A DNA stretch of 46,578 bases. It comes from Verrucomicrobiaceae bacterium (lineage in GTDB: Bacteria > Verrucomicrobiota > Verrucomicrobiia > Verrucomicrobiales > Verrucomicrobiaceae). The DNA lies in assembly GCA_029865835.1 (NCBI GenBank), contig JARXAL010000119.1:1-46578 (forward strand). Reading direction: 5' to 3'. Positions within the stretch are counted from its first letter, which is position 1. The number at the start of each line of letters is the position of its first letter. Below are positions 219 through 45,446 of the stretch, one piece after another. The notes under the pieces are model-generated. The model was not told where the DNA came from, did not search any database, and saw only the letters and a program-made list of their open reading frames with translations. A program made the position numbers and the translations under genes.

Positions 219-391
219 CACCGCCTCATTCCACCCGCTCGAAAAGCCAAAAATCCACCAATCAGCTGCCCTTCCCTTTCTCGTTCGATTTCCTCACGTA
301 TCGAAACGTTGCCGTTCACACAACATGCGCTCATCACCGACAAAAGCGCATCTGACGATCACTCGCCCCTTCGATGTGCGTTCTTGTGGGG

Positions 392-2134
392 ATGACATTT
401 CCCCACTGGACCCTCTACGCCCCGATACTTCTCGCATCCACTTTGCAGGCTGAGACCTGGCCGCTGGATAAAGTGGATGGCACCATGATCGTGCACGGCG
501 AGGCCAACACAGCTGCGGGCGCACTGGCACAAAGCTTGGTTCTAGATGGCAGCTCAGTGATCGAACTGAAGGACACAGCAGCCCTCCATGCTGAGCCCGG
601 TTTCACCTTATCCATCTGGTTCAATCCGTACGTGGTCTCAGGCTCTCAACAGGTCATCGCAGGCAAGACTCGTTACTCGCTGAACGAAAGGCAGTGGACC
701 CTCGCCGTAGAGCCGGATGGCAAACTCAAAGCATTCTTTCAGCAAGACGGTTGGAAGACCATCAGCAGCAATGAACCCCTCAAGGCCGGACATTGGCATC
801 TCGCAACCCTCACCGTCAGCTCCAAAATCGCGACACTCTATCTGAACGGCAAACATGCGGGTGAGACCATCCTCAAGAAGCCGCTGCCCGTCACGCCGTC
901 ACCCATCACACTCGGAGGCATAGCGGATGCGGGCCACCTGAAACAAACGTTCTCCGGTGCCCTCGATGAGTTCCACTACGAACCGCGCACGCTCACCGCA
1001 GCGGAGATCGCACAGAGCTTTCGACTCGTCACAGCCACACATGATCTACCCAAGCCCCTGTTATCAGAAACACCGTTGTGGGACGAGCGCGTGCCTTTGC
1101 TCAATGCCGCTGAACTACCCGTGCTTGAGGACGTGGCGTTTCATGTCATCAAGCACCCTCGACCCGACACCGATGAGTGCAAGTGGACCCTCGGAGTCGG
1201 CCTCGCATGGCATAAAAGTCAGCTCTTCGCCTCTTACGGCTTCAACAAAGGCGAGGAAAACACCCCCACCGAAGAAGCGCACGTCCGCATCAGCAACAAT
1301 GGCGGCCAAACCTGGGGAAAGCCTGTCGTCATGGATTCGGGTGAAGGCAACCTAGGCGTCAGTCACGGCGTCTTCCTATCCCACAACAACAAGCTGTGGG
1401 CGTTCATGGGCGCGTTTTACGATCGATTCCAACGCACCCACACCCGCGCCTACTCGCTGGATGAAGCGACAGGTCAATGGCAGGCAAAAGGTGTGGTGCT
1501 CGAAGGTGGCTTCTGGCCCATGCAAGAGCCTCAAAAAATGGACGATGGCAATTGGATCATGGCCGGAGCCAACATCGGCGATCGCAACCCCGCAGCCGTG
1601 GCGATCAGTCAGGGCGATGATTTCACCCAATGGAAAAAAATCATCATCCCCGTCTCGAAGAAGCTGAACATGTGGGGGGAGTCCACCGTCATCATCAACG
1701 GCAATCGCATCACCAACATCTCCCGCTATGGGGCCCAACCCATCGCACTCATCGCCACCAGCGGAGACTTCGGGCGCACGTGGAGCACCATGCTACCCTC
1801 AAACCTCCCCATGGCGACCAGCAAGCCCTACGCAGGCACCTTGAGCACCGGCCAGCGCTATCTCGTCTGCACCACCACCGCCGACAGCCGCGGCAAGCGC
1901 TCGCCATTGACCATCGCCGTCAGCAAACCGGGTGAATCCGTATTCAGCAAGGTCTTCGTGATTCGCCACTCCGTCCACTCCAATGGCCCCGGTGTCTCCG
2001 ATCCCCGGGCCGACTTCAGTTACCCATACGCCATCGAACACGACGGGAAGCTCTATGTCGGCTATACCCACAAAAGCCATGCTGCGAACGAACTAGCCGT
2101 CATTCCAATCGAAAAACTCCGGTTCAACCCGTGA
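392..2134 (+). CDS. Secreted LamG/sialidase-like protein
   Basis: A 580-residue exported protein. I chose the ATG at 392 over the one at 374 because it follows GTGGGG and opens a standard signal peptide (hydrophobic PILLASTLQA, cleavage near residue 20). Residues about 25-205 look like a concanavalin-type LamG domain. The remainder is a BNR/sialidase-like propeller with two Asp-box motifs, the degenerate SNNGGQTW and the well-formed SGDFGRTW. Such proteins act on glycans outside the cytoplasm, but no substrate can be read from the sequence; it may be a non-hydrolytic homologue. It heads a plus-strand run with an esterase, a LarA homologue and a GH105 enzyme, which points to breakdown of a decorated acidic polysaccharide. 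Confidence 0.85.
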   Translation: MTFPHWTLYAPILLASTLQAETWPLDKVDGTMIVHGEANTAAGALAQSLVLDGSSVIELKDTAALHAEPGFTLSIWFNPYVVSGSQQVIAGKTRYSLNERQWTLAVEPDGKLKAFFQQDGWKTISSNEPLKAGHWHLATLTVSSKIATLYLNGKHAGETILKKPLPVTPSPITLGGIADAGHLKQTFSGALDEFHYEPRTLTAAEIAQSFRLVTATHDLPKPLLSETPLWDERVPLLNAAELPVLEDVAFHVIKHPRPDTDECKWTLGVGLAWHKSQLFASYGFNKGEENTPTEEAHVRISNNGGQTWGKPVVMDSGEGNLGVSHGVFLSHNNKLWAFMGAFYDRFQRTHTRAYSLDEATGQWQAKGVVLEGGFWPMQEPQKMDDGNWIMAGANIGDRNPAAVAISQGDDFTQWKKIIIPVSKKLNMWGESTVIINGNRITNISRYGAQPIALIATSGDFGRTWSTMLPSNLPMATSKPYAGTLSTGQRYLVCTTTADSRGKRSPLTIAVSKPGESVFSKVFVIRHSVHSNGPGVSDPRADFSYPYAIEHDGKLYVGYTHKSHAANELAVIPIEKLRFNP

Positions 2135-2215
2135 GCCTCATCCATACACGCCTTACCTTCCTGCTGCCCGCAGAGGCTGGCTGTGAGAGTTCACCTCCAA
2201 AAACGTTCACCCGTC

Positions 2216-3148
2216 ATGTCACAACGCCTTTTCGCCCTCCTCATCTTCGCATCCATCCTGCCAGCCCTTGCTGCAAAACCCAAAATCAAAGTCACCCAAA
2301 CGAACTCGGACGACATGTGGGTCACTTCACCCGTGCCCGAACTGCCGACCCATGTCACGCATCACACTTTTCGCAGCGCATCCATGAATCGCGACGTTGG
2401 CTACTGCATCTACCTGCCGCCAAGCTACGATCAAGACACCACCCAACGATTTCCCGTGATTTATCATCTGCATGGCGCAGGTGGAAATGAAACTCGCAGT
2501 GTGTATTCAGCGACGGTGCTTCATGAAGGCATCGTGTCGGGGAAGTTGCCCAACATCATCATGGTCTTCCCCAATGGCGGGCGCTCGACGATGTATCAGG
2601 ATTCCGGCGACGGCCGCTTCATGGCGGAGACCATGATGATCCACGAACTCATTCCTCACATCGACGCGACCTATCGCACTCTCGCCGACCGCAAGGCGCG
2701 CTGCATCGAAGGCTTCAGCATGGGAGGGCGCGGCTCCACCAATCTGGCGATGAAACATCCGCAAATGTTCGGCTCGCTCTTCAATCAAAGCGGCAACGTC
2801 TATCACGTCTCCGATCCTTCCAAACTGCCCAACGCCTACCTCGGCGACGACCCCGAGCGCCTGCGTGCCAACGATGCCTTCCTGAACCTCAAAAAGAACC
2901 TCGACTTCATCAAAGCAAACCTCCGCATCCAGGTTGCCTGCGGCACCGCCGATCCAGAGCATCTCGTTTCGGTGCGCGAATTCCACCAAGCTCTCACCGA
3001 GGCAGGCATGCCCCACAGCTACTTCGAAGTCGAAGGCCTGGATCACAATCAGAAGAAGATGATCGACGGACGCAAAGCGAACTGGTTCGATTTTCAAATC
3101 GAATCCCTCAAGCTCAACCAAGTGCCACTCCACTACCTTAAACCATGA
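2216..3148 (+). CDS. Secreted esterase, esterase D / feruloyl esterase-like alpha/beta hydrolase
   Basis: A 310-residue protein. The ATG at 2216 opens a clean signal peptide (MSQRLFALLIFASILPALA); an in-frame GTG at 2183 would add a poor leader. The alpha/beta-hydrolase landmarks are YLPPSY, the oxyanion-type HLHGAGG near residues 85-90, the nucleophile elbow GFSMGG (Ser168), GTADPEH (Asp246) and GLDHN (His277), so a full Ser-Asp-His triad is visible. The family (PF00756) removes acyl groups from polysaccharides or small esters. With sialidase-like and GH105 neighbours, a polysaccharide deacylase or feruloyl-type esterase is a reasonable inference. The substrate is not known. Confidence 0.85.
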   Translation: MSQRLFALLIFASILPALAAKPKIKVTQTNSDDMWVTSPVPELPTHVTHHTFRSASMNRDVGYCIYLPPSYDQDTTQRFPVIYHLHGAGGNETRSVYSATVLHEGIVSGKLPNIIMVFPNGGRSTMYQDSGDGRFMAETMMIHELIPHIDATYRTLADRKARCIEGFSMGGRGSTNLAMKHPQMFGSLFNQSGNVYHVSDPSKLPNAYLGDDPERLRANDAFLNLKKNLDFIKANLRIQVACGTADPEHLVSVREFHQALTEAGMPHSYFEVEGLDHNQKKMIDGRKANWFDFQIESLKLNQVPLHYLKP

Positions 3149-3252: not shown

Positions 3253-4578
3253 ATGCCAACTGTCGACATTCCCTTTGAGCAAGGCGTTCTCTCCGTTCCA
3301 CTGCCGGAAGGTTGGCAAGTCGTCGATACCATCCGCCCCTTGCCGCACGCCAAACTCGAGGACGAAAGCGCCGGCCTCATCGCAGCGCTGGAGCATCCCA
3401 TTGGAACCTCGCCCTTGCGAGACAAAGCTCTGGCCCAAAAACGCATCGTCATCTGCATCGACGACATCAGCCGCCCCACCCCCACCGCCAGGTACTTCGG
3501 CACCCTGCTCAACTACCTGGTCGCCCATGGCGCCAACCCCGGGAACATGCTGATCCTCTTCGCCCTCGGCGTGCACCGCGATATGACTGCTGAGGAGGCG
3601 CGGCAAAAACTCGGCGCTGCCGATCTCCTCGGCATTCCCTGGCACAATCACTCCAGCACCGATTCACGTGAACTCGCCACTCTGGGCACCACCACACGGG
3701 GCACTCACATCGCCCTCAATCGCCACCTCGTTGACGCTGACCTCATCCTCACTCTCGGCGCTGTCGATCCCCACCTGTTGCTGGGCTTCAGCGGCGGTTG
3801 CAAAATGATCCTCCCAGGCCTGGCCTCCGCCCGCACCATCGCTGAAAACCACATGCAGGGTGTCAGCCATGCTCACTACAACTACATCGGCATCGCCGAC
3901 AGTCCGATGCGCCTCGATCTTGAGGAAGGCGCGAACATGCTCGGCAAAGAAATCTTCATCATCAACGCGGTGATGAACGAATCACTCGAGGTCTGCGCCT
4001 TTTTCGCCGGGCACCCCGTCGCTGCGCATCGCGAAGCGGTGCGCGTTGTTCAATCAATCAACGCACGCCCGGTCCAGGAGCCGGTCGACGTTGTGATTGT
4101 CGCCTCCAACCCGATGAACGCGGATTTGCGTCAGGGCTTGAAATGCATCGGCAATGTGGAAGCCAGTGTGCGTCCTGATGGATTGATCATCGGTTTTCTG
4201 GAGTGTCGGAACGGCATCGGCGACATTACCATCCCAACCTCCAAGTCCCTGCCGAACAGGGTGCTTCGATTCCTTCTGAAATGCATCGGCAGCAAGCGAG
4301 TGCTTGGGCTGATTGACCGGGTCAAAAAAGGCGCCGGCATCGAAGAGCGTTTTTTGGCTCACTTCTCGATGCAGCTCGCCCGCAACTGCCAAATTTATGT
4401 CCACTCACACAAACTTCCAGGCAACATCGGGGCAAGGGTCGGCTTGTTCGTTCAATTTGCCACGGTTGAAGCCATGATGACCGCTGCCCGCAAACGAGCT
4501 CCCAAAAATGCCAGCGTCCTCGTGTATCCCTACGCAGGCGCGACGTATCCCACTCTCTCAAAAGATCGCCAACCATGA
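3253..4578 (+). CDS. larA: LarA-family nickel-pincer racemase/epimerase
   Basis: A 441-residue cytoplasmic protein of the lactate racemase (LarA, DUF2088) family, which interconverts epimers of 2-hydroxy acids using a nickel-pincer nucleotide. Residues matching those I recall for Lactobacillus LarA are all in place: Arg74 in DISRPTP, His108 in GVHRDM, His174 in VDPH, Lys184 (cofactor lysine) in GGCKMILPG, His200 in AENH, and Gln294 and Lys297 in RQGLK. The residue before Gln294 is Arg where LarA has Tyr, which suggests a substrate other than lactate. No larB, larC or larE (cofactor synthesis) is in the window. The stop overlaps the GH105 start (ATGA), so the two are probably translationally coupled and the substrate may be a sugar acid. 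The symbol marks the family, not proven lactate activity. Confidence 0.85.
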   Translation: MPTVDIPFEQGVLSVPLPEGWQVVDTIRPLPHAKLEDESAGLIAALEHPIGTSPLRDKALAQKRIVICIDDISRPTPTARYFGTLLNYLVAHGANPGNMLILFALGVHRDMTAEEARQKLGAADLLGIPWHNHSSTDSRELATLGTTTRGTHIALNRHLVDADLILTLGAVDPHLLLGFSGGCKMILPGLASARTIAENHMQGVSHAHYNYIGIADSPMRLDLEEGANMLGKEIFIINAVMNESLEVCAFFAGHPVAAHREAVRVVQSINARPVQEPVDVVIVASNPMNADLRQGLKCIGNVEASVRPDGLIIGFLECRNGIGDITIPTSKSLPNRVLRFLLKCIGSKRVLGLIDRVKKGAGIEERFLAHFSMQLARNCQIYVHSHKLPGNIGARVGLFVQFATVEAMMTAARKRAPKNASVLVYPYAGATYPTLSKDRQP

Positions 4579-5798
4579 TTCATCGCACTTGCACCCTTGC
4601 ATCGCTTCTCTGCCTCACCTCACTTCAGGGGTCCTCTTCGGCCGCAGAGAACGAGTCTGCAGCACAACTGCGCGTCGTCGCTGAACATGTGTTAACGCAA
4701 ACGACCCGCCGGATGATTGATCGGAGCAGCGGACAGACCTTTGAAGAGACGACCGGCCTCGCACCCAAACCGGAGATCAGTATCGAGAGCAAATTCAACG
4801 CGTGGTTTTACCAGACGTGGCTGCTCACGGATGGCATGCGACGTGCTGCCGCCGCACTCAATGAACCGCGATACCACGAATACGGCGAACAGAATCTGGA
4901 GTTCATCTTCCGGCACATGGACTACTTTCAGCGTCAGCATGATGCACGCATCAAGGCTGCTCCAGTCGGAGACGGAAAGCTTTCGCCCATCGGCTTCTAC
5001 TTCGACATCACCGCACTCTGGCACACCGGTCTCGCGCCGCTCGTGCTGGAGCGCTCCCAAGCAACAAGTGAGCCGAAGTACGATCCCTTTCTGAGACGAA
5101 TGAGACACTTCATTACCGAGTGCCCCCGTTTCGACGACGGCCTGCTTTACCGCAAAGGCAAAGGCGCAATGACGGATGATCCGTTCATGACCGTCCCCTT
5201 CCTCGTTCGGGAGGCACGCTTTGATGAGGCGATCTCGCAGGTGCTCGGCACGCACAGACGTCTGCTCGATCCAAACAAACATCTTCTTCGGCATTTGTGG
5301 GATTTAAAAACCCAAAAGCCAGCTGGTGAGTTTTGGGGACGAGGCAATGGCTGGACCATTCTCGCACATGTCGAACTCCTCGCGACCATGCCGAAAGATC
5401 ATCCTCGCAGAGACGAGGTTCTGGCAGCCTATCAAAAGCACCTGACCGCAATCCGCGACTGCGCCGACCCACAAGGCGGCTGGCATCAAGTGCTGAATCA
5501 TCCAGAATCCTGGCTGGAAACCTCAGCCACTGGCATGTTGACCTATGGCATCGCTCGTGGCGTCAATGAAGGCTGGCTGGACACTTCATTCACAGAAACC
5601 GCCCGCAAAGGCTGGGCCGCGTTGCAAACCAAGGTCCTGCCCGATGGCGATCTACTCGACGTTTGTGGTTCGACCGATACTGGCGACTTGGACTATTACC
5701 TCAAGCGCCCTCGACTTCAGGGAGATCTCCACGGCTTTGGCAGCTACCTGCTGGCCGGTGCCGAAATCGTCCGTCTGCAATCCAGCAAATCCAAGTGA
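4575..5798 (+). CDS. GH105 (GH88-like) unsaturated glycuronyl/rhamnogalacturonyl hydrolase
   Basis: A 407-residue protein with an N-terminal signal-like stretch (LASLLCLTSLQGSSSA), so probably exported to the periplasm. It has the alpha/alpha-barrel motifs of GH105: DDPFMTVPFL at 201-210, WGRGNGW at 254-260, and the C-terminal HQVLNHPESWLETSATGM followed by YGIARGVNEGW. Family members hydrate and remove the unsaturated uronic acid left at chain ends by polysaccharide lyases, for example on rhamnogalacturonan or ulvan fragments. The ATG lies in the larA-like stop codon (4-bp overlap). No polysaccharide lyase is present in the window. Confidence 0.9.
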   Translation: MIHRTCTLASLLCLTSLQGSSSAAENESAAQLRVVAEHVLTQTTRRMIDRSSGQTFEETTGLAPKPEISIESKFNAWFYQTWLLTDGMRRAAAALNEPRYHEYGEQNLEFIFRHMDYFQRQHDARIKAAPVGDGKLSPIGFYFDITALWHTGLAPLVLERSQATSEPKYDPFLRRMRHFITECPRFDDGLLYRKGKGAMTDDPFMTVPFLVREARFDEAISQVLGTHRRLLDPNKHLLRHLWDLKTQKPAGEFWGRGNGWTILAHVELLATMPKDHPRRDEVLAAYQKHLTAIRDCADPQGGWHQVLNHPESWLETSATGMLTYGIARGVNEGWLDTSFTETARKGWAALQTKVLPDGDLLDVCGSTDTGDLDYYLKRPRLQGDLHGFGSYLLAGAEIVRLQSSKSK

Positions 5799-5877: not shown

Positions 5878-7740
5878 ATGTCGCGCGCCCGATCTTCCAA
5901 ACCATCGCCTCCTCTCGTCTATCTGGGTATCGAAGGAGGAGGCACCCGGACCACCGTGCGCTTGGAGGCTGAAAACGGTTCGGTTTTGGCCGAGTTCGCG
6001 ACGGGTCCCGCCGTGCTTTCTTTGATCTCAGACCGGGAGTTGCAATGGCACCTCCGCGATATCGCCGAACGCCTTCCTTGCACACCCTCTGCCATCGGCA
6101 TTGGCCTCGCCGGTGTGCGAACCGAAACCGATGCCGAACGCCTGCGCCGTGCCGCTTCGCGGATCTGGCCAGAGATTCCTTGCGTCGCCACCAACGATCT
6201 CGAGACCGCCCTCGCCGCCGTGCCTTTGTCGAGACTGCCTAGCTCTCGAGTCCTGGTGCTGAGCGGCACCGGATCCTGCTGCTTTGGCCGTTCCTCCGAT
6301 GGACGCACCGCTAAAGTCGGTGGCCGGGGTCACGTCATTGGCGATCGCTCCAGCGCCTGCGACATCGGCCTGCGGGCTCTCCGCGCTGTCATCGCAGATC
6401 TGGATCATTCTGGAAAAATGGGACCGCTCGGCGCCGCCATTCTGAATGCGCTGATGTTCAATGAGCCAGAGCAGCTCATCCCCTGGTCCGTGCAGGCCAG
6501 CAAAACGGAAATCGGGAATTTGGCAGTGACCGTTTTCGTTGAAGCTTCCAAGGGGGATGCCCTCGCCAAAAAACTGCTAAACGACTCCGCAGCCATGCTC
6601 GCCGAAGATGCCAGTGCCTGCGCGCTCCAACTCAAGCGCGATGTTGAGCCCATTGAGTTTGTTTTCAACGGTGGCGTGCTGCTCAAGAACCCGCCCTTCC
6701 TGAAAGAGGTCTGCCGCCGACTCCGAGTCGCCGTTCCCGGGGCCAAGATGATCCCGCTGACCGTGCCTTCAGTCTTGGGCGCCGTCGCCCTCGCACGCGC
6801 TCAAGGCGTTGTCGGCCCGGCTCAGGCGCATAGCCCAGCACGCGCATTGTTTCGCACCTTAACTTTGCCGGCTCCGTTAGCGGACTTAGGCGTGCTGGCC
6901 TTGTCACCCACCGAACGGCGCAACACACGCAGCCTGAAGCTCGACAAAATGTCGGTGGAGAAGGCCGTCGAGTTGATGCTGAGCGAAGACACTCTGATTC
7001 CTGCTGCCGTTGAAAAAGAGAAACGTGCCATCGCCGCTCTAGCAAAGCGGGTCGCTCGCGCTTTTGCAGCCGGCGGGCGGTTATTCTACGTCGGCGCGGG
7101 CACCAGTGGTCGGCTGGGCGTCCTGGATGCCAGCGAGATTCCCCCCACCTTCCGCGCGCCACGCGAGCAGGTGCAAGGCATCATCGCTGGGGGTCGCCAA
7201 GCGCTATGGAGCGCGGTGGAGGGGGCCGAAGACGACGTACAAGCGGGTGCCGCAGCAGTCACTCATCGTCGTGTCGGAAAAAAGGACGTGGTCGTTGGCA
7301 TCGCCGCTAGCGGACGCACCCCATTTGTCTGGGGGGCTTTGCACGAAGCTCGGCGGCGAGGAGCACACACGGTGATGCTCTGTTTCAATCCCGCCATGCG
7401 TCAGGCGGTTACTAAACTGAAAGGCCCGGACCAATCCTGGGCACCCGACCTCCTCCTTGCATTGAACCTCGGCCCGGAGGTTTTGACTGGCTCTACTCGT
7501 CTCAAATCCGGCACGGCAACCAAGCTGGTGCTGAATTTGATCTCCACTCTCGCCATGGTGCAATCCGGCAAGGTGATTAGCAACCTCATGGTCGATTTGA
7601 ACCCTTCCAACGTCAAGCTGCGCGACCGTGCCGAACGCATGGTTGCGGAACTCACACAGCGCTCTCTCGAAGATGCCCACGACGCCCTAACCGCCTCCGG
7701 ATGGGTCGTCAAAAAAGCCTGCGCCAAGCTAGGTCTTTAG
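5878..7740 (+). CDS. murQ: Fused BadF-type amino-sugar kinase and MurQ etherase
   Basis: A 620-residue two-domain protein with no signal peptide. Residues about 13-310 form a BadF/BadG/BcrA ATPase-type sugar kinase (N-terminal GIEGGGTRTT phosphate loop, LSGTGSCCFG near 128-137, GDRSSACDIG, NGGVLL). Residues about 343-620 are a full N-acetylmuramic acid 6-phosphate etherase: TERRNTRS, VGAGTSGRLGVLDASEIPPTF (Glu420), VEGAED (Glu448), SGRTPFVWGAL, EVLTGSTRLKSGTATK. Glu420 and Glu448 match the two catalytic glutamates known in E. coli MurQ. The kinase half resembles the GlcNAc/MurNAc kinase (MurK) type, so one polypeptide could phosphorylate MurNAc and then release GlcNAc-6-phosphate and D-lactate. 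A GlcNAc-only kinase remains possible. Confidence 0.9.
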   Translation: MSRARSSKPSPPLVYLGIEGGGTRTTVRLEAENGSVLAEFATGPAVLSLISDRELQWHLRDIAERLPCTPSAIGIGLAGVRTETDAERLRRAASRIWPEIPCVATNDLETALAAVPLSRLPSSRVLVLSGTGSCCFGRSSDGRTAKVGGRGHVIGDRSSACDIGLRALRAVIADLDHSGKMGPLGAAILNALMFNEPEQLIPWSVQASKTEIGNLAVTVFVEASKGDALAKKLLNDSAAMLAEDASACALQLKRDVEPIEFVFNGGVLLKNPPFLKEVCRRLRVAVPGAKMIPLTVPSVLGAVALARAQGVVGPAQAHSPARALFRTLTLPAPLADLGVLALSPTERRNTRSLKLDKMSVEKAVELMLSEDTLIPAAVEKEKRAIAALAKRVARAFAAGGRLFYVGAGTSGRLGVLDASEIPPTFRAPREQVQGIIAGGRQALWSAVEGAEDDVQAGAAAVTHRRVGKKDVVVGIAASGRTPFVWGALHEARRRGAHTVMLCFNPAMRQAVTKLKGPDQSWAPDLLLALNLGPEVLTGSTRLKSGTATKLVLNLISTLAMVQSGKVISNLMVDLNPSNVKLRDRAERMVAELTQRSLEDAHDALTASGWVVKKACAKLGL

Positions 7741-14705: not shown

Positions 14706-16784
14706 ATGAAAACGCTCCAAGTGATTCCCCTGCTCCTCATCATCGGCGCAATGTCCAGTCTCGCTGAAAATCGCACTTGGACGGATACCCAGGGCCGCAA
14801 ACTCGTCGGTGCCTACACTGGGCGCGAGGGAGGCAAAGTCCTGGTCACTGATGCATCAGGCCGACTCATCGCCGTTCCCCTAGAACGGCTGTCTCCCGAA
14901 GATCAGAAATGGCTGGAAACAGCCCCTGCTCCTGTCGTCTCGATTCCAGTCGACCAAACCGTCGCAGCGGCCGCTGCCAAAATCGATGAACTGATAGACC
15001 GCAAGTTGGCCCAAAAAAGCATTCAGCCCAATCCACCCGCGTCAGACGAAACCTTCGTTCGCCGCGCCTATTTGGACATCGCCGGGCGCATCCCCAGTCG
15101 GGCGGAAACGGTGGCGTTCCTCGAAGACACCTCCACCCAAAAACGCTCGCAATTGATTCGCACCTTGTTGAATTCGGACGGCTACACCAGCCACCTCTAC
15201 AACTATTTCGCCGGAATGCTCCGGATTCGCGACCCGGACAATGGCGGCCTCATGAAGGCCGAGCCCTATGTTGCTTGGATCAAGCAGCAAATCCGCGAAA
15301 ATCGGCCTTACAATGAAACCGTCGCCGCCATGCTCACCGCCACAGGCAAGCTCTGGAGCAACGGCGCCACCGGCTACCTCCTGCGTGACTCCGGTATGAC
15401 TCTGGACAATCTCGCCAATACCTTTTCCGTTTTTCTTGGCACCGACGTCGCCTGCGCTCAATGCCACGACCATCCCTTCTCCGAGTGGACCCAAAAGCAG
15501 TTCTATGAATTGGCAGCCTTTTTTGGTGCCACCGCCACAGGTGACTACGGCGGCATGATGGGAGAGGATGTAGTTGAGCGCCTCATGACCGAATTGCGTA
15601 ACACCACCGAAAAAAATGGCGGTGACGTGGAGAAAGTTGAGGGGGTCCGCAATCTGCTTTCGGACGTCATCAATGCCAATCGCTTCGTCGTGCGCGACAC
15701 CAACGAAAACCGCCTCCGTCTCCCGAGTGACTATGCCTACAAAGACGGCAAACCCGGAGATCCCGTGAAACCCAAATTCATTCGCTGGGGTGGCGAAGAC
15801 CGCTACAACGACGCCTATAAGCAAAACAAAAGCAACGAAGAGAAGCTGCGACTCGCCTTTGCTGGTTGGATGACCCATCCATCCAATCCCAGATTCTCCA
15901 TCACGATCGCTAATCGCATGTGGAAACGTGCGTTTGGCGTCGGCGCGGCCGAACCCGTACGCAATGTTGATGATCCCACGGCGGCGGCAAACCCGGAATT
16001 GCTACGTCACTTGGGTCAGGAAATGGTTCGCTTGAAGTGGCAACTCAAAGACTTCATGGAAGTTGTCTATAACACCCGAGCCTGGCAACGCGAGGCCACC
16101 ACCGCCGCAGTCGGAATGGGCGAACCCTACCACTTCCAGGGCCCGCTCCTTCGCCGCATGAGCGCTGAGCAAACTTGGGACTCGTTTATGACGCTTGTCC
16201 TTGGTGATCCCGATTCTTATTCACCTAAAACGGTCGGCCAACAAATGCGTTCTCTCGACCTGGATGTCGAAAAGGCCACCGGCGAACTGGTCGCGTCCAA
16301 GCTCACCGGATTTATGGCGGCTCAGGAAGCAATGAACGAGCGTGGTGGCGGCTTGGCCACCGCTGCCATGGCTGAAGGCGGGAAGAAAATCCTCGAGCAC
16401 AATGGCATGAAACTCCTGCGTGCGGCAGACCTCGAACAACCCGCGCCCGAGGGACATTTTCTTCGGGAGTTCGGCCAGGGTAACCGTGACCTCATTGACG
16501 GTAGCAACACAGCGGGAAGTCAACCTCAGGTGCTCATGTTGATGAATGGCGGCGTTCAAGAAATGCTAACCCACCCTGACTCACTCATCCTCCGCGAAGT
16601 CCTGAAAAACGAACTGCCCAAAAAACAAGTCGAGACCGCCTTTCTCACCGTCCTCAACCGGAGACCCAGTGAGAACGAAAAGAAACTCGCTTTCGACCAA
16701 CTCAACACTCACGGTGACGCCGTCGGCATCTCAAACATCACCTGGGCTCTGCTGACCTCCCTGGAATTCATGTTTGTTCAGTGA
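14706..16784 (+). CDS. DUF1549/DUF1553 protein with N-terminal SHD1-like domain
   Basis: A 692-residue exported protein with signal peptide residues 1-20. Residues 23-70 (RTWTDTQGRKLVGAY ... ERLSPEDQKWL) look like the SHD1/SLA1-homology domain common at the N-termini of Planctomycetes-Verrucomicrobia exoproteins. A DUF1549 domain follows (about 90-290) and then DUF1553 (about 395-685). A CxxCH haem-type motif, CAQCHDHPF, sits at 250-258. The family is abundant in this phylum but has no settled function. DUF1549/DUF1553 genes usually sit beside a DUF1501 gene; none is next to this one. Its last 7 nt overlap the convergent truA copy. Confidence 0.85.
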   Translation: MKTLQVIPLLLIIGAMSSLAENRTWTDTQGRKLVGAYTGREGGKVLVTDASGRLIAVPLERLSPEDQKWLETAPAPVVSIPVDQTVAAAAAKIDELIDRKLAQKSIQPNPPASDETFVRRAYLDIAGRIPSRAETVAFLEDTSTQKRSQLIRTLLNSDGYTSHLYNYFAGMLRIRDPDNGGLMKAEPYVAWIKQQIRENRPYNETVAAMLTATGKLWSNGATGYLLRDSGMTLDNLANTFSVFLGTDVACAQCHDHPFSEWTQKQFYELAAFFGATATGDYGGMMGEDVVERLMTELRNTTEKNGGDVEKVEGVRNLLSDVINANRFVVRDTNENRLRLPSDYAYKDGKPGDPVKPKFIRWGGEDRYNDAYKQNKSNEEKLRLAFAGWMTHPSNPRFSITIANRMWKRAFGVGAAEPVRNVDDPTAAANPELLRHLGQEMVRLKWQLKDFMEVVYNTRAWQREATTAAVGMGEPYHFQGPLLRRMSAEQTWDSFMTLVLGDPDSYSPKTVGQQMRSLDLDVEKATGELVASKLTGFMAAQEAMNERGGGLATAAMAEGGKKILEHNGMKLLRAADLEQPAPEGHFLREFGQGNRDLIDGSNTAGSQPQVLMLMNGGVQEMLTHPDSLILREVLKNELPKKQVETAFLTVLNRRPSENEKKLAFDQLNTHGDAVGISNITWALLTSLEFMFVQ

Positions 16785-17548
16785 ACCTCAACCAGATACA
16801 GCCCGCCAGCCGGGGCTGTTTGATGAGATTGCAGACCGCTCGGTGTTTCGAGCAATTGGGCAAACCACTCAAGCGTGGCACGACCTCGGGCAACCTGGAT
16901 CAAAGAGCCTACAATCATGCGCACCATTCGATAGAGAAAGGCATCGCCTTCAATCTCGATCTCTAGCACATCGCCTCTTTCACTCAACTCGACCCGGCGA
17001 ATGGTTCGGGTTGATCCCAAAACATCTTCCCGCCGTTCCTCTTCCGACTGATTGCCGCGATTGGCCGAGAGGCGGACAAAATTGTGCGTGCCAATCAACA
17101 ACCTGGCTGCGGTCTGCATGACCTCCATATCGAGTGATCCATAAACATGCCAAGCACGATCCGCTTCGAACACGTTCATCTCACGAGCACGCCAAATGCG
17201 ATAAAGATAAGTCTTTCCTCTGCTGCTGCCGCAAGAGTCAAAACCCTCCGGAGCGTGATCGATCGCCAGCACCCGAATCGTTTCTGGCAGTAGCGCGTTC
17301 AAACCACCCATCCAAGCTGATAGGGGGAGCGTGATCGACTCAGGCACATCGAAATGAGCTAACTGAGCGAGTGCATGGACACCCGCATCAGTGCGGCTAG
17401 CGCCTTGAATACGAAGGGGTTGCTTGACGAGGCGCTGAATCGCCGACTCGACTTCATCCTGAACGGTCCCACCTTCTGATTGACTCTGCCAGCCAAGCCA
17501 GGGTGTGCCACAATAGGCGATGGTCATCTTGAACCTTTGATCAGGCAT
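16778..17548 (-). CDS. truA: tRNA pseudouridine synthase TruA, second copy
   Basis: A 256-residue TruA-family protein (pseudouridine at tRNA positions 38-40). The catalytic motif SRTDAGVHALAQ is intact (Asp54), and the GWQ motif, YLYRIWR and FLYRMVRMIVG segments are present. The usual YDG near the N-terminus is YCG here. It is clearly paralogous to the adjacent upstream truA, and its ATG overlaps that gene's stop by 8 nt (ATGCCTGA), so the pair is one transcription unit. Whether it modifies the same positions or another RNA is open. Its 3' end overlaps the convergent DUF1549 gene by 7 nt. Confidence 0.9.
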   Translation of the reverse strand: MPDQRFKMTIAYCGTPWLGWQSQSEGGTVQDEVESAIQRLVKQPLRIQGASRTDAGVHALAQLAHFDVPESITLPLSAWMGGLNALLPETIRVLAIDHAPEGFDSCGSSRGKTYLYRIWRAREMNVFEADRAWHVYGSLDMEVMQTAARLLIGTHNFVRLSANRGNQSEEERREDVLGSTRTIRRVELSERGDVLEIEIEGDAFLYRMVRMIVGSLIQVARGRATLEWFAQLLETPSGLQSHQTAPAGGLYLVEVH

Positions 17549-18359
17549 ATTTGACCTCCACCAAATAAAGTCCGTCAGCCGGTGCCGCTAGATGGCTCTT
17601 CGGCTCAGCGCGCGGACGTTCCAACAAATCGCGAAACCATGCCAGATCTTCCTTGCCTCGCGCCACATGCATCAAGCTGCCAGTAAGCAGACGCACCATT
17701 TTGTAAAGAAACCCATCACCTTCGAATTCCAGTTCCATCACTTCAGAATTGATTCCGAAAATTTCGACACGCTGAATGGTTCGAGTCGTGTTCAGCGGGT
17801 CTTGTCGCCGTTCAGCTTCTTTTTCACCAGCACGATTGGCCGAGAGCCGGGCAAAATCGTGAGTCCCCACCAAAAGCGCCGCCGCGTTTCGCAATGCCGC
17901 CTCGTCGAGACACCCATAGACCTGCCACGCCCGACCCACTTCAAAGGGACTCATGACCCGATGCCGCCAAATTCGGTAGCGATAGATCTTACCCTGCGCA
18001 TCAAACCGCGCGTGAAAGGTCCGCTCTGGTTCGATGACTTCTTGAACTCGAATGCTCGACGGCAGGCAGGCATTCAAAGCATTCGTCCAGGATTCCAACG
18101 AGAGTGAAGCCGTTTCGGGAACGTCGGCATGAGCCACCTGTGCCAATGCATGAACTCCCGCGTCAGTTCGTCCAGAACCATACGTTCGCACAGGAACCCC
18201 CGCCACTTTCTCCAAAGCTACATGCAATGCGTCCTGAATCGTCTCTCCATGCGGCATCGATTGCCAGCCGCGCCATAGCCTCCCATCATACGCCAACGTC
18301 AGCCGCAGACGTTTGAAGCCCGTGGGCGCAGCAAAGCGTGAGCGATCAGGATCCACCAC
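17541..18359 (-). CDS. truA: tRNA pseudouridine synthase TruA, first copy
   Basis: A TruA-family enzyme of about 272 residues with canonical motifs: LAYDGRLWRGWQ, GSGRTDAGVHA (catalytic Asp66), YRYRIWR and FLYKMVRLLTGSLMH. I take the first of two tandem GTG codons (18359) as start because it leaves a 14-nt overlap with ruvX and the TruA homology begins soon after (KRLRLTLAYDG). An in-frame ATG at 18440 would add 27 residues lying wholly within ruvX. It retains all catalytic features and is likely the housekeeping copy. It is followed directly by a paralogue. Confidence 0.88.
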   Translation of the reverse strand: MVDPDRSRFAAPTGFKRLRLTLAYDGRLWRGWQSMPHGETIQDALHVALEKVAGVPVRTYGSGRTDAGVHALAQVAHADVPETASLSLESWTNALNACLPSSIRVQEVIEPERTFHARFDAQGKIYRYRIWRHRVMSPFEVGRAWQVYGCLDEAALRNAAALLVGTHDFARLSANRAGEKEAERRQDPLNTTRTIQRVEIFGINSEVMELEFEGDGFLYKMVRLLTGSLMHVARGKEDLAWFRDLLERPRAEPKSHLAAPADGLYLVEVKYA

Positions 18360-18852
18360 GGCGACGTCGTTCTCGGCTGATGTCAGATGGCCATCCCAAA
18401 TCAATGCCTTCGTCAGGTAACAGATAGCCCTCAGGCCCACGGCTGCTGTTTAGATACTCCTGGAGAATGACCATTGCGGCAAGTTGATCCACCACCTCCC
18501 GCCGAGCATGGCGGTCCGTAATCCCGGCTCGTGATAGACTTGCTTCCGCCTCCACGGAAGAAAGTCGCTCGTCCACCATTTCGATCGGAACTTCATGCCG
18601 AAGTGCTTTGCCGAGCTGTTCGACAAATCTTTCCACTCGCGCCGCAGCTTCTCCATGCTGCCCATTCATGTGCAAAGGCAGTCCAACAATGATCTTTCCT
18701 ACTTCCCGTGCACGCGCGATCTCGACGATCACATCCAAAGGCCCAGCCGCAGCATCCAACGTCTTCAATGGACTCGCCACCAATTCCATCTCATCACTGA
18801 TGGCCAACCCGATGCGGGCTGTGCCATGATCAATGCCAAGAATACGCGCCAT
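18346..18852 (-). CDS. ruvX: RuvX/YqgF-type pre-16S rRNA nuclease family protein
   Basis: A 168-residue RNase H-fold protein. The N-terminus RILGIDHGTARIGLAISD carries the first acidic residue and the conserved GIDxGxxRIGLA motif. VGLPLHMNGQ, VDERLSS and the C-terminal VDQLAAMVILQEYL complete the YqgF signature. The family is known as a Holliday-junction resolvase homologue and, in E. coli, matures the 16S rRNA 5' end. The C-terminal 25 residues are basic and extend past the core. It overlaps the following truA start. Confidence 0.92.
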   Translation of the reverse strand: MARILGIDHGTARIGLAISDEMELVASPLKTLDAAAGPLDVIVEIARAREVGKIIVGLPLHMNGQHGEAAARVERFVEQLGKALRHEVPIEMVDERLSSVEAEASLSRAGITDRHARREVVDQLAAMVILQEYLNSSRGPEGYLLPDEGIDLGWPSDISRERRRRGGS

Positions 18853-20416: not shown

Positions 20417-21226
20417 ATGATGAATTTTTGGACCCTCTGCTTTCTTTCCGTCACCTCCTACACCCTTCCGCTTTACAGCTCAGACATCACTCCTCCCGCT
20501 GGATTTGAGGCCATCTTCAATGGCAAGGACCTGGCAGACTGGGAAGGCAGCGAAGAATACTGGTCGGTCGAAGACGGTGCCCTGACAGGGGTCACCGACG
20601 GCTCTCTCAAATACAACCGATTCATCACATGGAAAGCAGGCAAAGTTCGGAATTTCGAACTGCGAGTAAAAGTGAAGGTGACGCCTGATGGAAACAGCGG
20701 CCTTCAATACCGGGGCCAGGAACGGCCCGATCTTGGTGAATGGGTCGTCACCGGATATCAATGTGATGTCGTCCCGAAAAACCCCGACTACAATGGCATG
20801 CTCTATGAAGAACGCGGCCGCCGAATTCTGGCTCATACAGGCGAAAAGGTCATCATTAATCCCGCTGGCCAGCCTTGGGTCGTAGGCAAGATGCCCATTC
20901 AAAAATTTCCGGGCGATGAATGGCACGAGTATCGGGTTCGAGTCGAAGGTAATCACCATCAACACTGGATCGACGGCGTTCCCACCGTGGATGTGGTCGA
21001 TTTGGATGAGAAGGGCCGCGCTCTCGAGGGCGTCATCGCTGTGCAAGTCCATGTCGGGCCTGCGATGAAAATCCAATATCGTGACTTCTTTTTGCAGCAT
21101 TTGCCGGCTGACCTTCCACTACTCACCTCATCAGATCGTCCCATCCCTACCGATGCTGTCAAGGTAGTACCCCAAGGCGGAGGTGCAGGGAAAGGCAAAG
21201 CTTCAATCAAGAAGCCCGCCAAATAG
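20417..21226 (+). CDS. DUF1080 secreted protein (3-keto-disaccharide hydrolase-like)
   Basis: A 269-residue exported protein with a hydrophobic N-terminus (FWTLCFLSVTSYTLPLYSS) and one DUF1080 (PF06439) jelly-roll domain. Typical motifs are FEAIFNGKDLADWEG, WSVEDGALTG, ELRVKVKVTPDGNSGLQYRG, YQCDVV, EWHEYRVRVEGNHHQHWIDG and GVIAVQVHVGP. The family has a concanavalin-like fold; some members cleave 3-keto-disaccharides, many have no known function. The C-terminal 25 residues are Gly/Lys-rich. A secreted sulfatase follows 75 nt downstream on the same strand. Confidence 0.88.
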   Translation: MMNFWTLCFLSVTSYTLPLYSSDITPPAGFEAIFNGKDLADWEGSEEYWSVEDGALTGVTDGSLKYNRFITWKAGKVRNFELRVKVKVTPDGNSGLQYRGQERPDLGEWVVTGYQCDVVPKNPDYNGMLYEERGRRILAHTGEKVIINPAGQPWVVGKMPIQKFPGDEWHEYRVRVEGNHHQHWIDGVPTVDVVDLDEKGRALEGVIAVQVHVGPAMKIQYRDFFLQHLPADLPLLTSSDRPIPTDAVKVVPQGGGAGKGKASIKKPAK

Positions 21227-21301
21227 GCAACTTCTCCTGTTCCCCGACATCGATTCTGTTTTTGTGCAATGACACGCATGCCGTCCACGTTTCACCCTAA
21301 C

Positions 21302-22882
21302 ATGTTTCGCCGCTTCCTCCTCTCTTCGCTGTTGTCACTCGCTGGCGTTTCGCAAGCAGCCAGCCAGCCCAACATCCTTTTCATCTTCTGTGATGACCTC
21401 ACAACGCAGGCCATCAGCACCTACGGCGACAAGCGCAAACTCCTTCAAACCCCTGGAATGGATCGCCTGGCCAAAGAAGGCATTCGCTTTGACCGCTGCC
21501 TGGTCACCAACTCCATCTGTGGACCCATGCGCGCCGTCATTCAAACCGGCAAGTACTCCCACCTCAATGGCTTCTACAACAACAGCAATAGCTCATTTGA
21601 CAGCACCCAACAGACCTTCCCAAAGCTTTTGCAAAAAGGCGGGTACACCAATGCCGTCATCGGTAAGTGGCACCTCATGACCGACCCTGTTGGTTATGAC
21701 TATTGGCATGTTCTGCCAGGCCAGGGCGCCTACTACAATCCCCCGATGATTGACAACGGCAAACCCGTCAAACACTCAGGCTATACCACTGACATCATCA
21801 CCGATCTCAGCTTGGAGTGGCTCAAAAACCGCGACAAAACCAAACCCTTTATGCTCATGATGCAGCACAAGGCCCCGCACCGCGAATGGGAACCGCCCAT
21901 CCGACACCTGGGCCATGACAACGACCGGGTCTACGAAGAGCCCGAAACGCTCTTCGACACCTTTGAAGGCCGCACTAAAGCCGTGAGCGACCATGACATG
22001 GGCATCGAACGCACCATGACAGATGGCGATCTCAAACTCAAGCCACCGGGTGGGCTGACTGAAGATCAACTCAAGTATTGGAACGAATACTATGAGCCCC
22101 GGAACGCCAAGTATCACGCCGCCAACCTCACCGGTAAAGAACTCGTCAAATGGCGATATCAGCGTTACATGCACGATTACACCGCATGCGTGAAAGCGGT
22201 CGACGATAGTGTCCAGCGCACCCTTGATTACCTCGACAAGGAAGGCCTAGCAGGGAACACCATCGTCATTCTCAGCAGCGACCAAGGCTTCTACTTGGGT
22301 GAGCATGGTTGGTTCGACAAACGCTGGATCTTTGAAGAGTCCCTGCGCACACCCTTCCTTGTTCGTTGGCCAGGCATCAGTAAGGCCGGAACTTCCAACG
22401 GAAAAATTGTTTCCCTTCTCGACCTTGCCCAAACGTTCCTGGACATCGGCGGTCAGCCTCAACCTGCTGACATGCAAGGCCGTTCCCTCGTGCCGCTCTT
22501 CAAAGGCGAAGAACCCGCCGACTGGCGCAAATCCTTTTACTATCACTACTACGAGTTCCCCGCCCCCCACCGCGTCCGTCCGCACTATGGGGTTATCACG
22601 GATCGCTACAAACTCGTCCACTACTACAAACCCGACGTCGATGACTGGGATCTTCTGGATCGTGAAAAAGACCCTCTTGAAACGAAGAACTTCTACAACG
22701 ATCCCGCCTATGCCGATACCGTGAAAGAGCTCAAAGTCGAACTCGCCCGCCTGCAAACTGAAGTCAAAGAAACTTTGCCTCCGCCTCGCAAGGCTCACGG
22801 CAACAAGGCCTTTGATGGTGAACCCGAAGCTTCCGCGCCAACAAAAAAGGGCAAGGGTAAAGCCAAGGCCAAAGCAAACTAA
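21302..22882 (+). CDS. Secreted sulfatase with unusual CGPMR active-site motif
   Basis: A 526-residue type I sulfatase. I chose the ATG at 21302 because it opens a compact signal peptide (MFRRFLLSSLLSLAGVSQA); 21269 would add 11 residues. Metal-binding DD is in IFCDDLTT, the formylglycine site is C73-G-P-M-R77, and IGKWHL and SSDQGFYLGEHGWFDKR are conserved. The core CxPxR needed for formylglycine conversion is kept, but the fourth position is Met where Ser, Ala or Thr is usual. It ends in a Lys/Ala-rich tail (KKGKGKAKAKAN). The substrate is unknown; probably a sulfated polysaccharide fragment. Confidence 0.9.
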   Translation: MFRRFLLSSLLSLAGVSQAASQPNILFIFCDDLTTQAISTYGDKRKLLQTPGMDRLAKEGIRFDRCLVTNSICGPMRAVIQTGKYSHLNGFYNNSNSSFDSTQQTFPKLLQKGGYTNAVIGKWHLMTDPVGYDYWHVLPGQGAYYNPPMIDNGKPVKHSGYTTDIITDLSLEWLKNRDKTKPFMLMMQHKAPHREWEPPIRHLGHDNDRVYEEPETLFDTFEGRTKAVSDHDMGIERTMTDGDLKLKPPGGLTEDQLKYWNEYYEPRNAKYHAANLTGKELVKWRYQRYMHDYTACVKAVDDSVQRTLDYLDKEGLAGNTIVILSSDQGFYLGEHGWFDKRWIFEESLRTPFLVRWPGISKAGTSNGKIVSLLDLAQTFLDIGGQPQPADMQGRSLVPLFKGEEPADWRKSFYYHYYEFPAPHRVRPHYGVITDRYKLVHYYKPDVDDWDLLDREKDPLETKNFYNDPAYADTVKELKVELARLQTEVKETLPPPRKAHGNKAFDGEPEASAPTKKGKGKAKAKAN

Positions 22883-28614: not shown

Positions 28615-29580
28615 ATGAAGACGACGTTGACTCTCACACTCCTATTGATATCGGCCTCCTTTGCAGCCGATACGCCCAACCTCGCTGGAACCTCGGGCAA
28701 CGTGGGCACGGGCGAACAACCGAAGCTCGTGCATCGATTGGAGATCACAAAGCCAGGTGTGTATGAAAACTTCCGCGTCGACTCGCAGGGCAAAGGCGGC
28801 AACATTGTCAAAATCACCGCAGACGATGTCACCTTGAGAAACTGCGAGATCTTCAACGGTAGCGGAAATGGTGTCGGCGTCTTTGGTGAACGGGTCCTGA
28901 TCGAAAACTGCCGCATCCATCATCTGCTGAGCGGGACCTTCGAGGATCAGCATGATGCCCATGGCATCACTGGCAGTTGGGGTGATGTGACCATCCGCAA
29001 CTGTGACATCTCGAACATCTCTGGGGACTGCGTGCAATTTGATCCAGATCGTAAATCGCGTGGCCGTGTCACCATCGAACACTGCCATCTCTGGGCAGGT
29101 CCACTCGCAGAAGACGCTCCTGGATTCAAGGCCGGACAGAATCCAGGCGAGAACGCATTCGACTCCAAAACAATGCCCGATGGCGAGCGCTGCCAGCTAA
29201 TCATTCGCCAGTGCTACATGCACGGCTGGAGCCAACCCTCACAGATTCAGAATCGCGCAGCGCTGAATTTGAAGGAGCATATTCATGCGGTGATCTCAAA
29301 CTGTGTTTTCTATGACAACGAAATCGCCATCAGAGCCCGCGGGCCCGGTGGACGCGGCAATGCGCATGTGACCATCAAAGATTGCGCGATCTTCAACACG
29401 CAAGTTGGAGTACGTGCCGAAGACAACATCGAACAACTCAAAATCAGCGGCATGGGCTGGGGGCCACGTGTGAAGTCACGCATCGAGCGACACAACGGCA
29501 AGGAGCTTCCAGGCTTCGAAAGTAATGGCGATCACGATGCAGAGCCAATCAGCGAACTCATCTCAAAACCAACACCTTAA
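28615..29580 (+). CDS. Secreted right-handed parallel beta-helix protein
   Basis: A 321-residue exported protein (signal peptide MKTTLTLTLLLISASFA). From about residue 65 it is built of repeated parallel beta-helix rungs (DVTLRNCEIFNGSG, RVLIENCRIHHL, DVTIRNCDISNISGDCV, RVTIEHCHLW, AVISNCVFYDNEIAIRARG, HVTIKDCAIFNTQVGVRAED). This is the fold of pectate lyases, polysaccharide epimerases and many adhesins. I cannot pick out a catalytic site, so the role is unassigned. It probably shares a transcript with the GH25-like lipoprotein 10 nt upstream. Confidence 0.82.
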   Translation: MKTTLTLTLLLISASFAADTPNLAGTSGNVGTGEQPKLVHRLEITKPGVYENFRVDSQGKGGNIVKITADDVTLRNCEIFNGSGNGVGVFGERVLIENCRIHHLLSGTFEDQHDAHGITGSWGDVTIRNCDISNISGDCVQFDPDRKSRGRVTIEHCHLWAGPLAEDAPGFKAGQNPGENAFDSKTMPDGERCQLIIRQCYMHGWSQPSQIQNRAALNLKEHIHAVISNCVFYDNEIAIRARGPGGRGNAHVTIKDCAIFNTQVGVRAEDNIEQLKISGMGWGPRVKSRIERHNGKELPGFESNGDHDAEPISELISKPTP

Positions 29581-31274: not shown

Positions 31275-31479
31275 CGCCAATTCACCTCTCGCAGGGCCTC
31301 CCGCTGCGCAGGCGTCAGATATGCCATTGCCTTGTTCAAGTCGCTGCGTATCAACGCATTTAACTTCGTTGCTTGGGCCATCGAGAGGGACAGTCTTTCC
31401 GTGGAATTTTCTGAAACAGAGCAATCAGGTGAATTGCTGAGATATGGTCTCCATCAAAGCCGTTTCAGGCGCACATCCA

Positions 31480-45444: not shown

Positions 45445-45446
45445 GA

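Follow-up and report, generated by a model that had tools for sequence, protein, structure and literature searches.

What does a LarA-family racemase act on when its gene runs straight into that of a glycoside hydrolase? The question is raised by a 46,578-nucleotide (nt) stretch from a Verrucomicrobiaceae bacterium (contig JARXAL010000119.1, positions 1–46,578, hereafter the window; its genome, labelled G000, comprises 4.01 Mb in 292 contigs and is 85.6% complete), in which a larA homologue overlaps a downstream gene for an unsaturated glycuronyl hydrolase of family GH105. An original prediction made from the sequence had read this coupling as pointing to an epimerase for an acid released from a polysaccharide. 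Here, we give about an even chance to a different reading, namely that the window LarA is an active racemase or epimerase of 2-hydroxy acids which depends on the nickel-pincer nucleotide (NPN) and takes a small or hydrophobic (lactate-like or short) substrate, not the uronate of GH105.

Family, predicted fold, residues, cofactor genes, and clade were read directly from the sequences and the model. The protein matched the Pfam domain Lar_N at 172.6 bits (cut-off 23.3). In alignments, D72, R75, H108, H174, K184, H200, Q295, and K298 of lactate racemase LarA_Lp, residues with roles in catalysis, NPN binding, or substrate binding (PMC7583248, PMC11851776), corresponded to D71, R74, H108, H174, K184, H200, Q294, and K297 of the window protein, and the position of LarA_Lp Y294 was occupied by Arg293. 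The family assignment, the retained cofactor lysine and catalytic histidines, and the arginine replacing tyrosine beside the conserved glutamine had all been noted in the original prediction and held up. Among 144 aligned homologues, D71, R74, H108, H174, H200, and K297 were invariant, K184 was kept in 137, and Q294 in 136. Seven homologues (L147, L150, L152, L154, L156, L159, L161) retained both histidines but carried Asn at Lys184 and either Leu or Val at Gln294; judging from these residues, NPN tethering may be absent in the seven. An AlphaFold model of the window LarA, calculated from a 42-row alignment, reached a mean predicted local distance difference test (pLDDT) of 93.4 and a predicted template modelling score (pTM) of 0.91. 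According to VIA-align, the closest solved fold was LarA_Ip (9EIA; Z 44.8, root-mean-square deviation (rmsd) 2.6, 417 residues aligned), with LarA_Lp entries at Z 43.1–43.9, malate racemase Mar2 at Z 38.6 (rmsd 4.8), and gluconate epimerase GntE2 (4NAR) at Z 32.4 (rmsd 3.2, 363 aligned); matches below rank 12 (Z ≤ 5.5) were treated as unrelated and were not used. The C-terminal domain lay beyond the single-sequence phmmer alignment, yet is LarA-like in the model, in which a helix at 292–305 carries R293, Q294, and K297 and a helix at 363–378 carries F367. Of the attributes by which the LarA superfamily is delimited, the Lar_N domain, the two-domain fold, the catalytic and cofactor residues, and larB, larC, and larE in the genome were present. 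Between genus copies, raw counts of synonymous to nonsynonymous codon differences were 69:19 and 52:22 for larA, and 28:11 and 85:53 for the GH105 gene. By analogy with characterised LarAs, the window protein is very probably functional. It is likely to be a working nickel-pincer enzyme, because larE, larB, and larC lie on another contig and a Lar_N search of the genome returned one LarA. The lack of larB, larC, and larE noted originally applies to the window but not to the genome; the genome search proposed at the time recovered all three, consecutive on contig C136 and above their NCBIfam cut-offs (Table 1), and the genome-wide absence named as counter-evidence was thus not observed.

Four positions of LarA_Lp are described as governing specificity (F175, F176, W358, and T359; PMC11770544), at which the window protein has L, L, F, and L. 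None of the four agreed with the signatures of lactate racemases (F,F,W,E/Q), GntE gluconate epimerases (E,V,A,H), or 2-hydroxyglutarate racemases (Y,F,H/Q,T; rule from PMC11770544), and neither of the two positions in the malate racemase rule did so (H/Q and K at W358 and T359, where the window has F and L). Phe367 agreed with the rule for hydrophobic 2-hydroxyacid racemases, i.e., F or Y at W358 (PMC11770544). The side-chain pocket, composed of Leu175, Leu176, Leu296, Phe367, and Leu368, looks hydrophobic. LarA_Ip (LarAH2), a short-chain 2-hydroxyacid racemase of Isosphaera pallida (PDB 9EIA, 9EID) and the top PDB match of profile A1, resembles the window protein in its fold, its catalytic and NPN residues, and the leucine that comes first in the loop (the Leu-Leu of the window is near Leu174-Met175 of LarA_Ip; PMC11851776), but is about 26% identical to it and has Tyr294 instead of Arg293, the alpha-14 tryptophan instead of Phe367, and Met175 instead of Leu176. 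The hydrophobic 2-hydroxyacid racemases LarAH10, LarAH52, and LarAH66 likewise have Phe or Tyr at the W358 position and a hydrophobic pocket; an Arg293 signature is not mentioned for them in the excerpts of PMC11770544, and the window protein scored 227.1 bits with the LarAH10 model NF052525 (cut-off 540). The gluconate 2-epimerases GntE1 and GntE2 (PDB 4NAR) have the LarA fold and catalytic machinery in common with the window protein, which lacks their E,V/S loop, alpha-11 W, and alpha-14 A/V (PMC7583248) and had a lower structural score with them.

In LarA_Ip, Tyr294 contacts the 2-OH of the substrate, and the Y294A protein carried no tethered NPN (PMC11851776). Arg293 must therefore, by analogy, either take over the job of this tyrosine or change it; among open-licence PubMed Central (PMC) papers on lactate racemase Tyr294 or Y294, none contained ‘arg294’. 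Cofactor loading, mechanism, activity, and substrate class were modelled on LarA_Lp and LarA_Ip. NPN from the LarE, LarB, and LarC of the genome would be tethered to Lys184, with nickel also bound by His200, and the substrate carboxylate would be gripped by Arg74, Gln294, Lys297, and two histidines. His108 and His174 would alternate in removing and returning the 2-OH proton, the hydride would pass to NPN and back via a 2-keto acid, Arg293 would stand in for the tyrosine contacting the 2-OH, and the five pocket residues would prefer a small or hydrophobic side chain. Because of this preference, a lactate-like or short 2-hydroxy acid would be expected over the uronate of GH105; the substrate is perhaps lactate, or an acid freed by the esterase encoded upstream. 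Co-translation with GH105, we infer, reflects shared expression and not consecutive steps.

Several observations weigh against this reading. Seven NCBIfam LarA-type models matched the window protein, all below their own cut-offs, and the best score was obtained with a malate racemase family and not with the hydrophobic type: LarAH6 (NF052593) at 263.0 bits (cut-off 500), ahead of LarAH10, lactate racemase (NF033504, 224.9 bits, cut-off 460), malate racemase LarAH5 (NF052595, 206.7 bits, cut-off 462), the hexonate model (NF052594, 62.1 bits, cut-off 500), and two others (77.7 bits, cut-off 740; 17.3 bits, cut-off 400). Six other members or near-members of its clade (see below) were also below every NCBIfam LarA cut-off. 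Mar2, a LarAH6 malate racemase (PDB 6D6Z, 7S91; NF052593), also gave the top single-sequence score among solved LarAs and shares with the window protein a Pro-Met-Arg ahead of a conserved acidic stretch, but the latter has neither the lysine for the second carboxylate nor H/Q at the W358 position. LarAH10, despite its hydrophobic site, still epimerises gluconate (PMC11770544), so that a hydrophobic pocket leaves room for a sugar acid. Replacement of the tyrosine could also mean altered cofactor handling, since the Y294A variant of LarA_Ip lost NPN. With respect to the cofactor genes, LarC was above its cut-off without any Lar_N match in six of the nine LarC-bearing family genomes tested for both (G007, G009, G011, G012, G014, and G018), which have either an orphan LarC or a LarA outside the reach of Pfam. 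Among 14 control genomes, LarC matched in six and Lar_N in two; Lar_N missed Corynebacterium glutamicum, in which the LarA homologue GntE1 is proven (PMC7583248), and hence overlooks divergent LarAs. The single LarA of G000 is accordingly the one visible to Lar_N, beside which a second, divergent LarA may exist, and larEBC need not serve the window LarA alone. Since the odds we give to a small or hydrophobic substrate derive from the residues and from larEBC being present, this control leaves them unaffected.

On alignment and tree, the combination of Arg293 with Phe367 (Trp in lactate racemase) is the mark of a supported, rare, small, and uncharacterised clade and not a quirk of one protein. 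Across the own and nearest-relative genomes (n = 57), the window LarA was found only in G000 and its congeners G001 and G003 (95–96%), the other two matches being at 31–32%. In a phylum sample of 387 genomes, 87 had a LarA at E 1e-30, none above 158 bits except the own genome. A contig scan returned at least 80 loci, with three from deltaproteobacterial metagenome-assembled genomes (MAGs) at 53, 43, and 44% identity over the full length and the remaining ones, among the matches listed, at 36% or less. Searches with clade profile A2 added G634 and G434 in 377 genomes, G1139 and G814 (682 and 658 bits) as well as the more distant G943 and G967 (410 and 370 bits) in 395 genomes, of which 20 more scored at most 256 bits, and G1369 in 195 genomes (the query genomes G433, G432, and G431 are counted within these totals). 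The resulting core of 11 sequences from nine lineages (the window, L005, L006, L037, L038, L039, L165, L166, L167, L168, and L170) was set apart, in a quickly built 144-row tree, by a branch with a Shimodaira–Hasegawa-like approximate likelihood ratio (SH-aLRT) of 98. All 11 had Arg293 and Phe367; outside the core, position 293 was Tyr in 113 and Arg in 5 of 133 sequences, and position 367 was Phe in 3. Both residues occurred jointly in 12 of the 144, the twelfth being the neighbouring L138. The tree included columns 293 and 367 and is not independent of them, but these are just two of 430 columns and unable to carry it. At the loop of LarA_Lp F175/F176, ten core members had Leu-Leu and L037 had Pro-Leu. 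In a second, separate group with Arg293 (L141, L142, L157), the loop was Ala-Thr and the W358 position was occupied by Thr.

The window genus was nested within a clade otherwise made up of the three deltaproteobacterial MAGs and genomes of their phyla, which suggests, on this placement, that its larA was acquired by horizontal transfer. LarAs of the same-family genomes G004 and G006 nested among named Verrucomicrobiota loci. In a plasmid collection, LarA relatives were found in 15 records, the best 10 of 15 at 27–33% identity. LarC was found in all six of the 11 clade genomes that the test covered (G000, G001, G003, G431, G432, and G433) and in 10 of 29 further relatives, and the number of Lar_N proteins per clade genome was one in G000, G001, G003, G432, and G1369 and two to four in six others. 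As all 11 members carry arginine at the place of Tyr294, the clade offers a natural test of the part that this residue plays in cofactor stability and in proton and hydride chemistry, and it may be a source of new specificity.

Table 1. Positions of the genes and features discussed, in the window unless a contig is named
Feature	Position	Strand	Remarks
LamG (Laminin_G_3) and BNR_2 sialidase-like protein	374–2134	+	possible operon member
PF00756 esterase	2183–3148	+	ends 104 nt before larA; may belong to the operon
LarA-family 2-hydroxyacid racemase/epimerase	3253–4578	+	ATG start, full-length, 441 aa; Lar_N match, alignments with solved LarAs, model
LarA key residues	3253–4578	+	D71, R74, H108, H174, K184, H200, R293, Q294, K297, F367
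Stop/start overlap of larA and GH105 (ATGA)	4575–4578	+	four bases
GH88/GH105-type unsaturated glycuronyl hydrolase	4575–5798	+	ATG start, 407 aa; D201 aligns with YteR Asp143
BadF/NagK-type kinase fused to MurQ-type etherase	5878–7740	+	79 nt downstream of GH105
3-keto-disaccharide hydrolase	20417–21226
Sulfatase (Pfam)	21269–22882
Beta-helix protein, secreted-looking	28615–29577		also given as 28615–29580; Beta_helix 50 bits
Sulfatase (Pfam)	31444–33390
Sulfatase (Pfam)	44071–45459
larE	C136 5812–6615		LarE 293.4 bits, NCBIfam cut-off 150
larB	C136 6612–7385		LarB 264.6 bits, NCBIfam cut-off 175
larC	C136 7505 to contig end		gene cut at contig end; LarC 194.9 bits, NCBIfam cut-off 90

The overlap between larA and the GH105 gene was present as originally described (Table 1), and the pair occurred in three of four genus genomes, all three with the ATGA. 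As the whole region is syntenic within the genus, this conservation is weak evidence. The sialidase-like and esterase genes lie 48 nt apart on the same strand. By eye, the N-termini of the sialidase-like protein, the esterase, and GH105 are signal-like and no signal peptide was seen at that of LarA, so that LarA and GH105 should reside in different compartments. The GH105 protein matched Glyco_hydro_88 at 191.7 bits (cut-off 26.6); this model spans GH88 and GH105, and the nearest solved named relatives are GH105. Like the YteR-type unsaturated rhamnogalacturonyl hydrolases of the same Pfam family, it keeps the catalytic Asp143 (D201) and Met147 (M205), but has Arg193 for His132 and Met199 for Trp141 in one pairwise alignment (residue roles from PMC4528949), so that its substrate need not be that of YteR.

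It is conceivable, but in our judgement unlikely, that LarA epimerises a sugar-derived acid (a free uronate at C5, or an aldonate) from the polysaccharide of GH105, in consecutive or parallel steps. The conserved overlap speaks for it, as do the upstream genes, which resemble secreted glycan-acting enzymes (signals by eye), the acceptance of gluconate by the hydrophobic pocket of LarAH10, the three window sulfatases suiting a glycan degrader, and the beta-helix protein, which is weakly pectate-lyase-like (Pect-lyase_RHGA_epim 21.1 bits, under the cut-off of 27). No polysaccharide lyase family was above its cut-off among the 16 window proteins scanned with Pfam, and neither the GntE signature nor the hexonate model fitted LarA. 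The product described for GH105 enzymes is 5-keto-4-deoxyuronate, which is then converted to 2-keto-3-deoxygluconate (KDG; PMC7953866); both lack an sp3 CHOH beside the carboxylate, so that LarA chemistry should not act on them. A GH105-like open reading frame (ORF) was found by phmmer at none of the eight clade loci outside the genus, some of which are cut by contig ends, and among the 80 named LarA loci listed, three of which belong to these eight, at one, where some 2.4 kb separate it from a LarA belonging to a different clade. The adjacency survey covered 192 loci (phmmer at 1e-5 with window proteins as queries; 161 with a LarA ORF) and yielded nine with a GH105-like ORF, eight of which are overlapping excerpts from the three genus genomes and the ninth L088 of Paenibacillus periandrae (Glyco_hydro_88 385.9 bits). 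LarA is flanked by 3 kb or more on either side in 57 of the 80 named loci, and many other loci had 1.5-kb flanks, so that short contigs may hide pairs, and a single GH105 query at 1e-5 may miss distant GH105s. Among 31 sampled relatives, G001 and G003 had a GH105 relative with an E of 1e-40 or better, and the other 29 had none. The same-genus genome G002 had no LarA, GH105, LarC, or kinase-MurQ match (87% complete, about 700 contigs); given this assembly and the absence even of the otherwise common kinase-MurQ gene, co-loss in G002 was not counted.

The part of the original prediction concerning enzyme class, residues, and overlap was borne out and cofactor genes were found, but the coupling gained no support as a pointer to the substrate: the pair was seen in a single genus, the keto acid described as the GH105 product has no alpha-hydroxy centre, and the specificity positions are unlike those of sugar-acid epimerases. 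GH105 as a key to the substrate was dropped as the leading reading. A substrate should hence not be read from a single overlapping neighbour, as this one is lineage-specific and the active-site signature is shared far beyond it. In the open-licence PMC literature, no paper combined ‘lactate racemase’ with ‘GH105’, and ‘nickel-pincer’ together with Verrucomicrobia or glycoside hydrolase was not found among the matches listed. DNA identity between the window and the genus copies (L117/L118) was 92.7% for larA and 96.7% for the GH105 gene in G003, and 94.2% and 86.9%, respectively, in G001; this uneven divergence may hint at recombination.

The kinase-MurQ fusion on the same strand downstream, in the same gene order in G001 and G003, may point to lactate by another path. 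MurQ yields D-lactate. LarA could racemise the D-lactate from N-acetylmuramic acid (MurNAc) 6-phosphate to feed an L-lactate route, or act in reverse, and its pocket would suit lactate. The MurQ half scored 337.4 bits with PRK05441 (cut-off 168), and the nearest PDB entries of the fusion were MurQ and a kinase for MurNAc and N-acetylglucosamine, but the fusion remained under TIGR00274 (290.4 against 302, 12 bits short) and the NagK equivalog NF046058 (79.4 against 370). Of the 20 family genomes sampled, 17 have the fusion, and its flanks there, of about 1.5 kb, contain no LarA, so that it needs none; a MurQ-like ORF was found at none of the eight clade loci outside the genus, and the lactate racemase signature is absent from LarA at all four positions. 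Overall, we regard a link to MurNAc turnover as rather unlikely. Neighbours of the fusion (L176–L192) varied among the 17 family genomes having it. Among the matches listed in open-licence PMC on MurQ, MurNAc 6-phosphate etherase, or peptidoglycan recycling, ‘lactate racemase’ was not found.

The surroundings of larEBC bear on another possible substrate of the clade, an acid from the synthesis of the envelope or of exopolysaccharide, which we hold to be very improbable. In three of three genus genomes (L003:3210-8305, L129, L130), larEBC directly follows genes for a glycosyltransferase, an exosortase (EpsH), and a DUF3485 protein (called with Pfam in G000 and, in the remaining two, by resemblance and gene order), but the genus larA itself lies outside this locus. 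Outside the genus, the gene ahead of larA encodes a DegT/DnrJ aminotransferase in two sister taxa of the clade, in one of which a family 2 glycosyltransferase (GT2) is encoded two genes further up, and another clade member lies about 0.5 kb behind lpxD, which is accompanied by OmpH. Neighbours vary by lineage, and at the other five clade loci the adjoining genes scanned were of other kinds or unmatched; Pfam matches beside clade loci included a peroxiredoxin, a short-chain dehydrogenase/reductase with part of an ATP-binding cassette transporter, a histidyl-tRNA synthetase-like gene, and a cytochrome c7-like protein.

Alternatively, the genes from the esterase to GH105 may constitute an operon for an acylated, uronate-containing glycan, in which the esterase would free a 2-hydroxy acid, GH105 would remove the unsaturated uronate, and LarA would invert the acid for metabolism. 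LarA would then be a racemase of glycan substituents and the Arg293/Phe367 clade a new specificity class with arginine in the cofactor- and 2-OH-stabilising role of tyrosine, a proposal that is speculative and, taken as a whole, improbable. Ester-linked L-glycerate occurs on native gellan, and the PF00756 esterase of the window could release a hydroxy acid ester. At one named locus, L066:9995-12450 of Tengunoibacter tsumagoiensis, the ORF immediately after a LarA from a different clade encodes a PF00756 esterase. The three sulfatases and the 3-keto-disaccharide hydrolase (Table 1) would suit an organism that degrades sulfated glycans, and the host bacterium appears to be a degrader of complex sugars. 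Elsewhere in the window, two overlapping, consecutive ORFs resembling the tRNA pseudouridine synthase TruA were noted by eye at 16778–18440.

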